DNA of 64,000 bases from Clostridiales bacterium. GTDB taxonomy: Bacteria > Bacillota > Clostridia > Christensenellales > Aristaeellaceae. The translations under genes were made by a program, and so were the position numbers. The notes below the pieces were generated by a model, which had not been told where the DNA came from, did not search any database, and saw only the letters and a list, made by a program, of their open reading frames with translations. This document shows positions 19,453 through 55,447 of this stretch, one piece after another; within the stretch, counting starts at the first letter, position 1; each line of letters starts with the position of its first letter. The DNA is taken from positions 62,001 through 126,000 of the forward strand of contig JAIKWZ010000006.1 of NCBI GenBank assembly GCA_024684375.1. The letters are read 5' to 3'.

Positions 19453-19680
19453 AAAAAAACGCCTTCCATCAAAGAAGGCGTCAAAACGCTGTACCACTTC
19501 TGTTCGTTTGCCGAAGCAAACCTCTGAAGCTGTAACGGGCAGACCCGACAGGGACTACTGTGGTTCACCCCTGTTGCTCGGGAGCGTATTCACGCAGTTC
19601 ATCCTTCCGTCTTGCACCGACCGACGTATCTCTTTAGAAATCCGGGCGTTACTCTTTCCCTCATCGCAGGAACAATTATA
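19453..19680 (-). promoter_or_regulatory. T-box riboswitch leader, apparent Tyr (UAC) specifier, with intrinsic terminator
   Basis: Minus strand: stem I base GAUGAGGGAAAGAGUAACGC pairs with GCGUGAAUACGCUCCC (specifier loop GAA-UAC, 19586-19588). T-box AAGUGGUACAGCG at 19487-19499. Terminator GCCTTCTTTGATGGAAGGC-TTTTTTT at 19453-19479. Confidence 0.85.
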
Positions 19681-50248: not shown

Positions 50249-50280
50249 TCCCCCTCCGCTTCTGGAGGGGGACTTTTTTT
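50249..50280 (+). terminator. Intrinsic terminator after deoD
   Basis: TCCCCCTCC-GCTTCT-GGAGGGGGA-CTTTTTTT. Confidence 0.88.
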
Positions 50281-51124
50281 AATCCGCGTAGAAGATCCCG
50301 TCAAACACTTCGTCAACAGGAATGTACTTTCCGTCCACAAGCACACTATCCTGCCAGTCAGTCTGCTTCATGCTCATCCAGCCTCTTTTGCGACCATTCA
50401 GCTCTGATATGCAAAGCCTGCTAACGTCATCGCTGGCGGAAAGCACGACCTTCAGCCCTGCTTTCATTTGAACGGTCGCGTCAGTGGCGTAAACGCTTGA
50501 TGACAAAACAATGTCTTTTTTTAGCGTCACGATCATATTCATCGGATAAAGTGCACGCGGATTCTCAATCATCGCGTATGAGATTGCAAAACTATCTTCC
50601 GAATACTCAAAGCACTGTGCTATCGAATAATCAGCCGGACGCGACCATGTGCCGATCATGTCAGCACGGATAGAAGTTGTAATAACGCCGTCTTCGCTTA
50701 CGCTGAAAGAGTCCACGAGAGCCGGGATCATTCCTATATTGGAAAGCCGCCCGTCAGAATAAATAAAGCAATATGTTATCGGGTCATCCGAAGGGCCGTA
50801 CTCGTTCACCATAAACAGCGTGGCATACCAATATGATTCGTCTCCAAGCTTCATCGCGTAAAGCTTCTTTTGAAGCGACACACAGTCATTCACGGTCAAC
50901 GAGTTGTCACCAACAGTTAGTGTGAAAGCACCGTCGTCATATTCGTTGAGCGCGAAACTGACATTAACTGTTTCTGCAGTTTCGTCACCGTCAAAGTCCA
51001 GCGTCAAAGGACCTTCTATCTGATAGATGTTCCAGGCTTTTTCTTCATATGCCTCTTCTGCAAGGACGGCGGAAAACAGGATAACGGCAAGTATAACGAC
51101 CAGTAGTTTTTTCACAGACATCAC
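50279..51124 (-). CDS. Secreted protein of unknown function
   Basis: Signal peptide MMSVKKLLVVILAVILFSAVLAEEAYE; no recognised domain. Confidence 0.7.
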   Translation of the reverse strand: MMSVKKLLVVILAVILFSAVLAEEAYEEKAWNIYQIEGPLTLDFDGDETAETVNVSFALNEYDDGAFTLTVGDNSLTVNDCVSLQKKLYAMKLGDESYWYATLFMVNEYGPSDDPITYCFIYSDGRLSNIGMIPALVDSFSVSEDGVITTSIRADMIGTWSRPADYSIAQCFEYSEDSFAISYAMIENPRALYPMNMIVTLKKDIVLSSSVYATDATVQMKAGLKVVLSASDDVSRLCISELNGRKRGWMSMKQTDWQDSVLVDGKYIPVDEVFDGIFYAD

Positions 51125-51241: not shown

Positions 51242-51294
51242 GATTCGCGCTATGTGTTTAAGCCGCTAATGCGGCATATCAAGGAGGAATAACG

Positions 51295-53250
51295 ATGTCC
51301 GTATTAATCAGCATTATTCTTATCCTTGCTTCCCTGGTGCTTATCGTTGCCGTGCTTATGCAGGAAGGCAACAAGCAGGGTCTGGGAGCTATCGGCGGCG
51401 CCGCCGAAACCTTCCTTGGCAAGAATAAGGCAAAAAGTGCCGAAGGTAAGCTGCTGAAGATTACCAAAATCGTCGCCGTGATATTTGTTGCGCTCGCTCT
51501 GGTGGCAACTTTCATCAGTTCCCGCACCTATAGCGTTCGCTATTATACCGAAGACGGAAAAGAGTACTTCCCCTACCTCGCCATGTTCTATCCCGGTGAT
51601 AATTATGAGGATGGTTATGCTGGCGAGTTCGCAAATTCCGGCATGAGCGAGAAGGAGTGGCAGGATACGCTCAGAAGCCACACCACCTATAAGAAAGGCG
51701 CAGAAGTCACCAAGTATTCCGCTCCTTCCAAGGTGGGCTACAGCGGATCATGGGTGCTGGCCAAGCTCGTGGATAAGACCGTGACCGATGAAGAAGGCAA
51801 GACCACTACGGTTAAAGTCCCCGAAAAGGTCGAAGGCGAAGTGCCTGCCACGATGGGTTCTTCAAATGTTGTGCTGATGGCCGAGTATTCCATCAACTCC
51901 TATACAGTCAGTATAGTTGATGACGGTATCCCCGCCCAAACTCCTGCTGAAGCCGAGCCCAAAACCGAAACTGCCGAGTCCGAGACCGCAGAAACTGAAG
52001 CCGCAGCGGAAACTGCTGAGGAAGCTGTTGAAGAAGAGCATACTCACAACGTGATCTTTACTGTTACCGCTAATTACGGTGAAGCGATCGATTACTCCGG
52101 TTTCGACAAGCTTCCCGAGGCAGAAGGCTACCTCACATTCTTCTCTACTCAAGAAGACGCTGTCGAGCAGGGTCTGGTTTACCAAACTCCCCTGCCTGAA
52201 ACGATCCCCGGAGAAGACGCGACTTATTATGTCTGTTATGCCAAGGGCAATTACGTCACCTATTGGGTCGACACCACAGTAACTGAAGAAGTTGACGAGC
52301 CCGTACTGGACAGCGAAGGCATCGAGACCAAAGACGAGGAAGGCAACGTGATAACTCAAAAGGTCACCAAGCCTGTACTTGATGCTGACGGCAACAAAGT
52401 GACCGAGCCTAAGGAATGGTTCCCCAAGCTCTCCAGCGAATTGGTTAACGAGATAACCTCTGAGTGGGAGGAAGCGTATTCCGAACAGATGGGCGAGGAC
52501 TTGGGCGCGTATCTGGAAGCCTATCTTAGCGCCATCTCTGACGGCGGCGAGATCACCACTGCTGTGTCCAAGTATTACAGCGATTATGTCGAGCAGTATA
52601 CCAAGGATGACAGGCTTGACATCATCCGCATGTTTGTCAACGCAGGCGAGGCACTGCCCAATATCGGCGCTCCCACCAAGGATGGCATGGTCGGCGTTTG
52701 GGAACCCGAGCTTGAAGTGATGGGCTCCGAGCCGATCAAGCTGACCGCAGTGTATTATCCCGAAGCCACTTTGACCATTTACGACGACGGCCTGAACGGC
52801 GAAAAGCTGAATGCTGCTGAGGATAAGGCTGAAACAGATGAAGCAACCGACGAGGAAGCCCCTGCCGCAGAGACTCCTTCTGAGACTCCCGCAGAAGAAT
52901 CTTCAGACGAAACCGCAGAGACCAATGCTGAAGAAGACAAGCATAATGTCATCTTCACTTATTCCGGTGAAGGCAGAACCATAAACTATAATGGTCTCGC
53001 TCTCCCCGAAGCGCCTGAAGGATACTCCGTTTCGTGGAGCGAAGAGCTTCCCGAAAAGGTTCCCGCCGGTGAAACCGTGATTTTCGTGGTTTACAGCGAG
53101 ATCACTTCCGATGCTGTCGCTGTTCCTGAGGCTGAGGAGACCGCTCCCGAAGTAGAAGACGATGACGTCTCTGCCCCGACTGAGGAAGAACCGACCGAGG
53201 ATCCAGCTGAAGAGCCTTCCACTCAGGAAGAAGCTGCTGATAACAACTGA
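51295..53250 (+). CDS. secG: SecG-like translocon subunit with ~575-aa acidic, repeat-containing C-terminal extension
   Basis: Residues 1-75 match SecG: two TM helices flanking LMQEGNKQGLGAIGGAAETFLGKNKAKSAEGKLLKITKI. Residues 76-651 are in frame and Glu/Thr-rich. RBS aaggagga; followed by rnr as in many Bacillota. Confidence 0.9.
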   Translation: MSVLISIILILASLVLIVAVLMQEGNKQGLGAIGGAAETFLGKNKAKSAEGKLLKITKIVAVIFVALALVATFISSRTYSVRYYTEDGKEYFPYLAMFYPGDNYEDGYAGEFANSGMSEKEWQDTLRSHTTYKKGAEVTKYSAPSKVGYSGSWVLAKLVDKTVTDEEGKTTTVKVPEKVEGEVPATMGSSNVVLMAEYSINSYTVSIVDDGIPAQTPAEAEPKTETAESETAETEAAAETAEEAVEEEHTHNVIFTVTANYGEAIDYSGFDKLPEAEGYLTFFSTQEDAVEQGLVYQTPLPETIPGEDATYYVCYAKGNYVTYWVDTTVTEEVDEPVLDSEGIETKDEEGNVITQKVTKPVLDADGNKVTEPKEWFPKLSSELVNEITSEWEEAYSEQMGEDLGAYLEAYLSAISDGGEITTAVSKYYSDYVEQYTKDDRLDIIRMFVNAGEALPNIGAPTKDGMVGVWEPELEVMGSEPIKLTAVYYPEATLTIYDDGLNGEKLNAAEDKAETDEATDEEAPAAETPSETPAEESSDETAETNAEEDKHNVIFTYSGEGRTINYNGLALPEAPEGYSVSWSEELPEKVPAGETVIFVVYSEITSDAVAVPEAEETAPEVEDDDVSAPTEEEPTEDPAEEPSTQEEAADNN

Positions 53251-53265
53251 TAGTTCGAATGATAG

Positions 53266-53298
53266 CGGCATGCAGATTAATACCTGCATGCCGTTTTA
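53266..53298 (+). terminator. Hairpin terminator/attenuator between secG and rnr
   Basis: CGGCATGCAG-ATTAATAC-CTGCATGCCG-TTTTAT. Confidence 0.75.
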
Positions 53299-53317: not shown

Positions 53318-55447
53318 ATGCTTTGCGATACAATACTTAAAATTCTAAATGAAGCGCCAAGGGCTCTCAGCTTCAGTCAGCTTAAACAGAAGTCAGGTAC
53401 AGACAGCGCGGCGCTCAAAGAAGAGCTGGCACGGCTTGCCGATGAAGGCAGGATCTATGTACAGAACTCGTCCAGATACGCAATTCCCGCAAAGGCCGGT
53501 TTGATTTTTTGCCGTGTCCGGCTTGCTTCGTATAACTCTCCTGCTTTCGCGATACCCTTTGAAAAAGGCAGCGACATTTACATCGATATGCCAGAAGAGC
53601 GTGTCCTGAATGGAGATCTTGTCTTTATAAGATTGACGAAGAACGGCGATAAACCAAGGGGCACCCTAATTCAGATAGTAAAGCGATCGCAAACACGCGT
53701 GACCGGCACACTTTACATAGACAAAAAAGATGTTTTAGGGTTTCGGCGTCACACCAGGAAAAAAGGCCGTCCGCGTCCTCAACCACAAAAAAGATATATC
53801 GCTTTGCTTTCTGACAAAAAACTTCCCCGTGAAGCTGACGTCGTTCAGATCGACTGCCCGTCTGCGCGTCCGGGTGATCTGTGTGTGTTTAACATACTGT
53901 CCTATCCTTACTCTTCAGGCGGCATGAAGCTGGCTTTAACGGACGTGCTTGGGTCTTCGGACAGCATCGACGCGCGTCTTTCCGCCATTTGTTCCGAAAA
54001 CTCGATCGTTCAGGATTTTGATGCAGAGACGCTGGAATGTGCCCGAAGTTTTGGGAACGATCCGAAAGCAGTCGATTATGATGGTCGCATGGATCTGCGC
54101 GATGATTTGATTTTTACTATAGACGGTGACGACGCCCAGGATTTTGACGACGCCGTTTCAATAGAGGTCAAAAACGATACCACCATACTGGGTGTACATA
54201 TAGCGGATGTAAGCAACTATGTCATGGAAGGATCCGTTTTAGACGACTGCGCGAGACAACGCGGTACATCCGTTTATTTGCCTGGACTTACTATCCCTAT
54301 GCTTCCGGAAAGCCTGTGCAATTGCCTGTGTTCGCTTATGCCGGAGCGCGACCGCCTGACTTTCAGCTGCATTATGCGTTACACAGGTCTTAAGCTCGAG
54401 TCTTTCGAACTGCGCACCTCTGTTATCCGTTCCAAAGCCAGGCTTACCTACAGCGAAGTCAATAAGCTGTTTGAGGGAAAAACAACAAAAATTCCCCACA
54501 GTCTGCACGCAGCGCTTATTCAGATGAACCGTTTTGCAAAGGCTCTAAGAAATGAACGCATAAAAAACGGCAGCATTGAACTTGATCTTCCCGAGCCCGA
54601 GTTCATTCTTGACGCTTCTGGTAAGCCTATTTCCGTCTCAGCCAGGGATCGTGGTGACGCTGAGATTCTGATCGAAGAATTCATGCTTGCCGCCAACACA
54701 TGCGTTGCGTCCTTCGCTCAGAAAAACGAGCTTCCCTTCCCTTATCGCGTTCACGAAAAACCGGACGCCGATAAGCTTAGTCAGCTTGATGAGCTTCTGA
54801 TCGCGCTCGGAGATCCTATCAAGGTGGGACAATCACCTTCTCAGACACGGCTTGCGCAGGTACTGTCCGCTTTTGATGGCGACAGCAGGCATCAGATCGT
54901 AGCGGAGTATCTCCTGCGCGCGATGGCGAAGGCAAGATACAGCGAAAAAAACCTTGGCCACTACGCGCTGGCGTTTAAAGACTATTGTCACTTTACCTCC
55001 CCCATAAGACGCTATCCGGATCTTCTGGCTCATCGCATGCTGAAGCGCTTTTTTGTGCGCCCATTTACCGAAGAAGAGAAGCTGCGTTTTACCGGAAACA
55101 TGCACACGCTCACTGAAGAAGCCAGCCAGTGCGAGCAAAACGCCGCTCAGGCGGAGCGAGACGCTGACGCATTTATGGAGGCATTATATCTGAACGATCA
55201 TAAACGCGACACATTCAGTGCGACCATTACCCGAATTCTTAAACACAACGCTGTCGTCAAGCTTGACAACTGCAGCGAAGGAGTTCTTCCATACAGAAAT
55301 ATGACAGGCGGTTATTCACCTGACATTGACGGGACAGTCCTCGTTTCCAAGAATACAAACAGGCCTTTGTATCTAGGTGACCGGGTTACCGTTCGTACCA
55401 GCTACGCTGATCCCGCCATGGGCTATGTGGAATTTGAGATGGTGTAG
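53318..55447 (+). CDS. rnr: Ribonuclease R
   Basis: FTIDGDDAQDFDDAVSIE, GVHIADVSNYV, HYALAFKDYCHFTSPIRRYPDLLAHR, C-terminal S1. The ORF track start at 53162 lies inside secG; ATG at 53318 preferred. Confidence 0.93.
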   Translation: MLCDTILKILNEAPRALSFSQLKQKSGTDSAALKEELARLADEGRIYVQNSSRYAIPAKAGLIFCRVRLASYNSPAFAIPFEKGSDIYIDMPEERVLNGDLVFIRLTKNGDKPRGTLIQIVKRSQTRVTGTLYIDKKDVLGFRRHTRKKGRPRPQPQKRYIALLSDKKLPREADVVQIDCPSARPGDLCVFNILSYPYSSGGMKLALTDVLGSSDSIDARLSAICSENSIVQDFDAETLECARSFGNDPKAVDYDGRMDLRDDLIFTIDGDDAQDFDDAVSIEVKNDTTILGVHIADVSNYVMEGSVLDDCARQRGTSVYLPGLTIPMLPESLCNCLCSLMPERDRLTFSCIMRYTGLKLESFELRTSVIRSKARLTYSEVNKLFEGKTTKIPHSLHAALIQMNRFAKALRNERIKNGSIELDLPEPEFILDASGKPISVSARDRGDAEILIEEFMLAANTCVASFAQKNELPFPYRVHEKPDADKLSQLDELLIALGDPIKVGQSPSQTRLAQVLSAFDGDSRHQIVAEYLLRAMAKARYSEKNLGHYALAFKDYCHFTSPIRRYPDLLAHRMLKRFFVRPFTEEEKLRFTGNMHTLTEEASQCEQNAAQAERDADAFMEALYLNDHKRDTFSATITRILKHNAVVKLDNCSEGVLPYRNMTGGYSPDIDGTVLVSKNTNRPLYLGDRVTVRTSYADPAMGYVEFEMV

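Follow-up and report, generated by a model that had tools for sequence, protein, structure and literature searches.

A predicted beta-grasp stalk on SecG and acidic arms on SecF suggest a rebuilt export-channel outlet in a lineage of gut Clostridia

Nearly all cells have a SecYEG translocon, whose small subunits are regarded as minimal; an ordinary SecG has about 75 aa. The window analyzed here, a stretch of 64,000 nucleotides from a Clostridiales draft genome (67 contigs, 77% completeness), contains a secG of 651 codons, and it raises the question of whether such a gene is real and what the part outside the membrane could be doing at the exit of the translocon. The features of the locus, all on the plus strand, are as follows.

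51281..51287, +, Shine-Dalgarno sequence AAGGAGG of secG, read directly; a strong RBS, kept upstream of the start in relatives of the genus
51295-53250, +, secG frame, 651 codons, uninterrupted and without internal stop
51295..51519, +, SecG core (residues 1-75), two TM helices and a basic cytosolic loop; PF03840 58.1 bits, TIGR00810 47.9 bits
51520..51894, +, predicted beta-grasp repeat R1 (residues 76-200) with a helical insert; AlphaFold2 pLDDT about 85-94; InlB B-repeat fold match of the homologous unit
51895..52248, +, predicted beta-grasp repeat R2 (residues 201-318), with a disordered acidic linker inside (about residues 212-250)
52249..52767, +, repeat R3 (residues 319-491), homologue of R1 with a helical insert, from hhalign and the AlphaFold2 model
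52768..53109, +, repeat R4 (residues 492-605), homologue of R2 with a disordered acidic linker inside (506-548)
53110..53247, +, C-terminal acidic disordered tail (residues 606-651), 19 D/E and 0 K/R
53318..55447, +, rnr (RNase R), the 3' neighbor of secG, outside the module; its ORF is listed from 53162, with the likely start at 53318

The first 75 residues leave little doubt about the identity of the gene. Profile searches matched residues 5-74 to the Pfam SecG family PF03840 (E = 9.9e-16, cut-off of 29.2 bits) and the protein to NCBIfam TIGR00810 (E = 1e-12, cut-off of 30.85 bits), both curated cut-offs being exceeded. SecG is known to consist of two TMs with a cytosolic loop between them (PMC8082313); in the AlphaFold2 model the helices span residues 2-24 and 46-75, with low confidence there, and the loop is conserved in the alignment of homologues. 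This was the sole SecG match in the draft genome, which also encodes SecE. The genomic context is conserved too, since the gene adjoins rnr, the usual place of secG, and rnr also follows secG on contig C372 of a genus relative (G004). Just past the secG stop (53267-53292, +), a hairpin GGCATGCAG/CTGCATGCC followed by TTTTAT was seen by eye and was unreported by the consensus scan. Divergent from secG, at 50279-51124 (-), lies a predicted secreted protein, and similar proteins stand beside both secG copies of G004. Elsewhere in the window there is a T-box leader (19471-19673, -; Rfam RF00230, 102.7 bits).

A preliminary description of this DNA had proposed that a textbook SecG is fused in a single frame to the long extension, and the stop-free 651-aa product, with its profile matches, bears this out. 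To see how widespread the fusion is, we searched 60 related genomes. The long form was found in all seven genomes of the genus, the window's included, with complete proteins of 500 to 676 aa and a frame open throughout; in two of the seven, a contig end cuts secG or one secG copy. The sister genus has a shorter fused SecG (263 to 321 aa among those read), also devoid of internal stops. Outside the genus, open frames of SecG did not exceed 187 codons among the matches listed from about 400 genomes sampled across the phylum, where lengths are those of open frames, including codons upstream of the start, and only of the best-scoring matches. The draft state of the window's genome could favor an artefact in which misassembly or a frameshift has linked secG with what is really a separate gene. 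However, the same stop-free junction recurs in independent assemblies of seven genus and four sister-genus genomes, no frameshift or stop turned up in the relatives, and a consensus scan found no plus-strand promoter-like site inside the gene, so that this explanation is already refuted. A separate second gene for the extension was likewise rejected, given the lack of such an internal site and of any independent copy of the extension apart from SecG in the genomes of the genus; the additional extension matches in G004 were split or second secG copies. G004, a draft with 5% contamination, carries two long secG genes that differ from each other (on contigs C302 and C7 plus C372; L117, L137, and L138), probably from two species or strains in one bin.

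The extension begins directly after TM2, and from the known topology of SecG (PMC8082313) it must therefore lie outside the cytoplasm, as had been proposed. Its 576 residues (76-651) include 131 D/E versus 34 K/R, and the whole secG product, with a net charge of -93, is the most acidic among the large ORFs of the window. The earlier characterization of the extension as acidic thus holds for its overall composition, but the acidity is not uniform: the model describes a string of folded domains with disordered acidic linkers. Built from 11 homologues, the AlphaFold2 model has confident blocks (pLDDT about 85-95) between disordered acidic stretches at 216-248, 506-548, and 607-651. The N- and C-terminal halves of the extension are homologous to each other (hhalign probability 99.6, E = 2.7e-24), and the sister genus has a single pair of repeats; by sequence comparison, R3-R4 is a tandem duplicate of R1-R2.

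With the full-length 651-aa model as a query, Foldseek gave a best E value of only 2.2e-3, hampered by the linkers, and for this reason we folded the compact sister-genus extension (172 aa, pLDDT 87.5) and used it as the query for the fold match. It matched the Listeria InlB B-repeat 2y5p (probability 1.00, rmsd 2.2 A, TM by target 0.67-0.69, 18-19% identity), as well as SHIRT domains (E = 4.1e-4) and YwfG (E = 6.6e-4). The homologous unit thus has a beta-grasp-like fold of about 70 residues, in a predicted model and not a solved structure, and the extension matches, at the level of models, an InlB B-repeat/SHIRT/MucBP-type surface domain. At the sequence level the signal is faint: the window protein gave no PF09479 hit in the Pfam search, and the homologues gave weak hits to Flg_new (3 of 11, best E = 0.043) and MucBP (2 of 11, best E = 0.029). 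Many invariant residues are kept across the repeats in the homologue alignment. A match to the PDB sequence of YxeP (E = 0.0002) was dismissed, as it falls on linker sequence and finds no support in the fold. A check of the extension for fold and homologues, recommended in the preliminary description, accordingly returned InlB-B-repeat-like repeats and a long form present throughout the genus.

This fold is typical of adhesin stalks of Gram-positive bacteria, and similar repeats occur in a giant protein of a relative of the same order (L136). The repeats could thus be a stalk for adhesion or binding, for which SecG would be a mere abundant membrane anchor and export would not be the function. 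We consider such surface display rather unlikely. We infer that four domains, given their predicted reach, make a short stalk for crossing a thick wall, and two further observations described below, the ancestral state of the tail and the inserts of SecF, also argue against it. The wall anchor suggested by the preliminary description found no backing either: by eye, the C terminus of SecG has no LPXTG-type sorting signal or terminal TM, and Pfam and NCBIfam searches detected no wall-binding family in the extension.

The relatives in which SecG was recovered, the named ones being mostly rumen or gut Clostridia MAGs, fall into three states: tail-less, with a D/E-rich tail of 40 to 145 residues usually devoid of K/R, and with the beta-grasp form. 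“Candidatus Pullichristensenella” and “Candidatus Alectryocaccomicrobium” are among the acid-tailed ones, and residues 606-651 of the window protein are the counterpart of these simple tails. In a tree made from 73 alignable columns of the SecG core, with the tails left out, 36 tailed rows formed one clade (98/89), and the ten beta-grasp rows a single clade (100/99) nested within it. Other acidic tails (L017; L093, L097, and L104) were placed outside the main tailed clade, and with so few columns many forks of the tree were unresolved. The simplest reading of these sequences is that the acidic tail would have been gained first and the folded beta-grasp stalk later, once. An ancestral state consisting of a plain acidic tail, with no adhesin domains, fits surface display poorly.

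The simple tails cannot be aligned with each other, and what persists is their length and charge. This is what would be expected of a steric or electrostatic spacer, an arm that would only hold the translocon away from peptidoglycan or other membrane proteins, or localize it, and touch no substrates, since a spacer needs no particular sequence. We regard this explanation as unlikely, because the invariant residues of the beta-grasp repeats and their low dN/dS exceed the needs of a pure spacer. Between the window and its closest relative, the dN/dS of the extension was 0.17, equal to that of the core, and in three other comparisons it was 0.27-0.38, above the core; from these values, the extension is under purifying selection. 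The same values bear on the possibility that the arm is a tolerated ornament of little selective value, grown by repeat expansion on the free C terminus of a subunit that is dispensable in model bacteria. The tails are indeed low-complexity repeats of variable length, and secG is non-essential in E. coli, B. subtilis, and S. aureus (PMC8082313, PMC12445088). Yet an extension as constrained as the core, present in every genome of the genus, and with matched inserts in SecF, has already weakened this reading, which we hold to be quite improbable.

The SecF inserts came to light in a test of whether the long SecG replaces SecDF. A fused SecDF is encoded by the window's genome (G000) and five more genomes of the genus, and the idea that the long SecG substitutes for SecDF was therefore rejected. 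No SecD_SecF match was obtained in G004 of the genus or in G007 and G080 of the sister genus, all of them drafts. Across the family, about a quarter of the sampled genomes (all drafts) had no SecD_SecF match and several had weak ones (e.g., G011, 761 aa, E = 6.7e-8), which may reflect a divergent or lost SecDF. A PrsA-type rotamase, checked as a possible substitute partner, was patchy across genomes.

In the acid-tailed genera with split SecD and SecF, SecF frames have 472 to 640 codons, compared to about 300 to 390 in tail-less ones; g64, with an unread tail, may be an exception. What is added sits in the extracytoplasmic P4 region. In seven acid-tailed genomes (L160, L161, L162, L163, L165, L166, and L169), P4 measures 283 to 386 aa and contains acidic low-complexity inserts, versus a normal size of about 83 aa (82 to 85 aa in the window's genome, G002, g74, and a relative that has no tail). 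In three other SecDF proteins (L144, L145, and L164, of G005, G001, and G107), P4 has 178 to 182 aa and looks like it contains an extra non-acidic domain. SecF of the window's genus has no acidic insert, and hence the elaboration there is on SecG alone; in two species P4 is enlarged and non-acidic. As g74 also combines a SecG tail with a normal P4, the coupling between SecG and SecF is not strict. Where both arms are present, their style is matched by lineage: pairing SecG tails with SecF inserts by Smith-Waterman scores ranked 21 of 5,040 permutations, and 4 of 720 when each genus was represented by a single genome, while dipeptide composition supported the matching more weakly (136 of 5,040). 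For one genus (g6), tail and insert had to be taken from different species. Since the tailed genera belong mostly to one clade, the association does not represent many independent events.

The genus g6 corresponds to “Candidatus Pullichristensenella,” according to matching contigs and proteins. In four of its five genomes the motif HDHDGDG, reminiscent in sequence of DxDxDG calcium sites, appears exactly once per genome, in the SecG tail in three (L190, L192, and L193) and in the SecF insert in the fourth (L191), whose SecG tail does not have it. In both proteins the extended motif is HDHDGDG(I/V)PDH. Comparable acidic stretches of 60 residues are rare in the window's genome, where 2 of the 282 large ORFs surveyed over 400 kb have them; over 220 kb of a relative (G136) the count was 5 of 133, and some of these look like antisense frames. 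Other exported proteins have acidic linkers as well, for instance a giant protein with repeats (L133) that the window's genome encodes on contig C63. This surface-like protein, with frames of 2,303 and 1,014 codons in the fetched stretch, combines PF09479 repeats with a very long EEPVEGEEPVDG-type acidic repeat. Among distant matches of the extension, the one in G044 is a giant protein containing Listeria-Bacteroides-type repeats, and that of G011 (contig C54) has in common with the extension only a DADG-rich stretch.

Relatives carry acidic arms both on SecG and within the P4 of SecF, and we favor the reading that the long SecG belongs to an outlet module of the Sec holotranslocon that is specific to this lineage. 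The explanation that we prefer, with a probability of roughly 40%, is that SecG bears a C-terminal anionic stalk (four InlB-B-repeat-type beta-grasp repeats, acidic linkers, and an acidic tail) that forms part of this module, an arm tethered at the exit and handling emerging chains or cations. Such handling would probably be the function of the module, and we infer each functional step that follows. The arm would remain tethered at the SecYEG exit and offer emerging chains anionic, cation-binding, and non-sticky surroundings; the Gram-positive membrane-wall interface is itself rich in dense, immobilized negative charge (PMC12445088). Edge strands or grooves of the repeats could transiently hold unfolded segments, which would reduce aggregation and back-sliding, and the arm might favor metal-assisted folding at the membrane-wall interface. 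For B-repeats, it has been proposed that strand 2 and the next loop make up a sticky groove for ligands (PMC8900821).

A bolder version, possible although doubtful, is that the arms on SecG and SecF are interchangeable anionic, cation-binding elements of a shared charge-based outlet module, which in one clade would have become a covalently tethered beta-grasp stalk receiving exported chains, a built-in extracytoplasmic vestibule undescribed before. The matching acidic arms suggest that the outlet of the export channel was rebuilt in this lineage of gut Clostridia. The preliminary description had missed the beta-grasp repeats, their origin from a simpler acidic tail, and the matching SecF inserts. 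A conserved and selected extension that places hundreds of anionic and folded residues at the exit, with its parallel in SecF, would be evidence that the translocon can be remodeled on its outer side. It would also provide a natural system for studying how bacteria that have no closed periplasm hold and fold chains as they emerge.

SecG and B-repeat-like domains are each known, while in the open-access full texts searched we found no described SecG with an extension of this kind, in agreement with the preliminary description, nor the combination of both, the acidic-tail precursor, or the SecF parallel. Compared with SecG (PF03840/TIGR00810), the window protein has an ordinary core in the usual place before rnr, but adds 576 residues outside the membrane to the normal length of about 75. 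The repeats resemble the InlB B-repeat (Listeria-Bacteroides repeat, PF09479), SHIRT, and MucBP-type domains in predicted fold, tandem arrangement, and extracellular location; they differ from PF09479-type repeats in falling below the Pfam cut-off, in their long helical or acidic inserts, and in being part of a translocon subunit, whereas those sit on adhesins. In terms of how it would work, the closest analogy is with the membrane-held outer domains at the SecYEG exit, namely, PpiD/YfgM of E. coli, which aid release or limit back-sliding there (PMC8082313), and the outer domains of SecDF and YidC. These are, however, separate proteins with other folds, while the domain described here is part of SecG itself.
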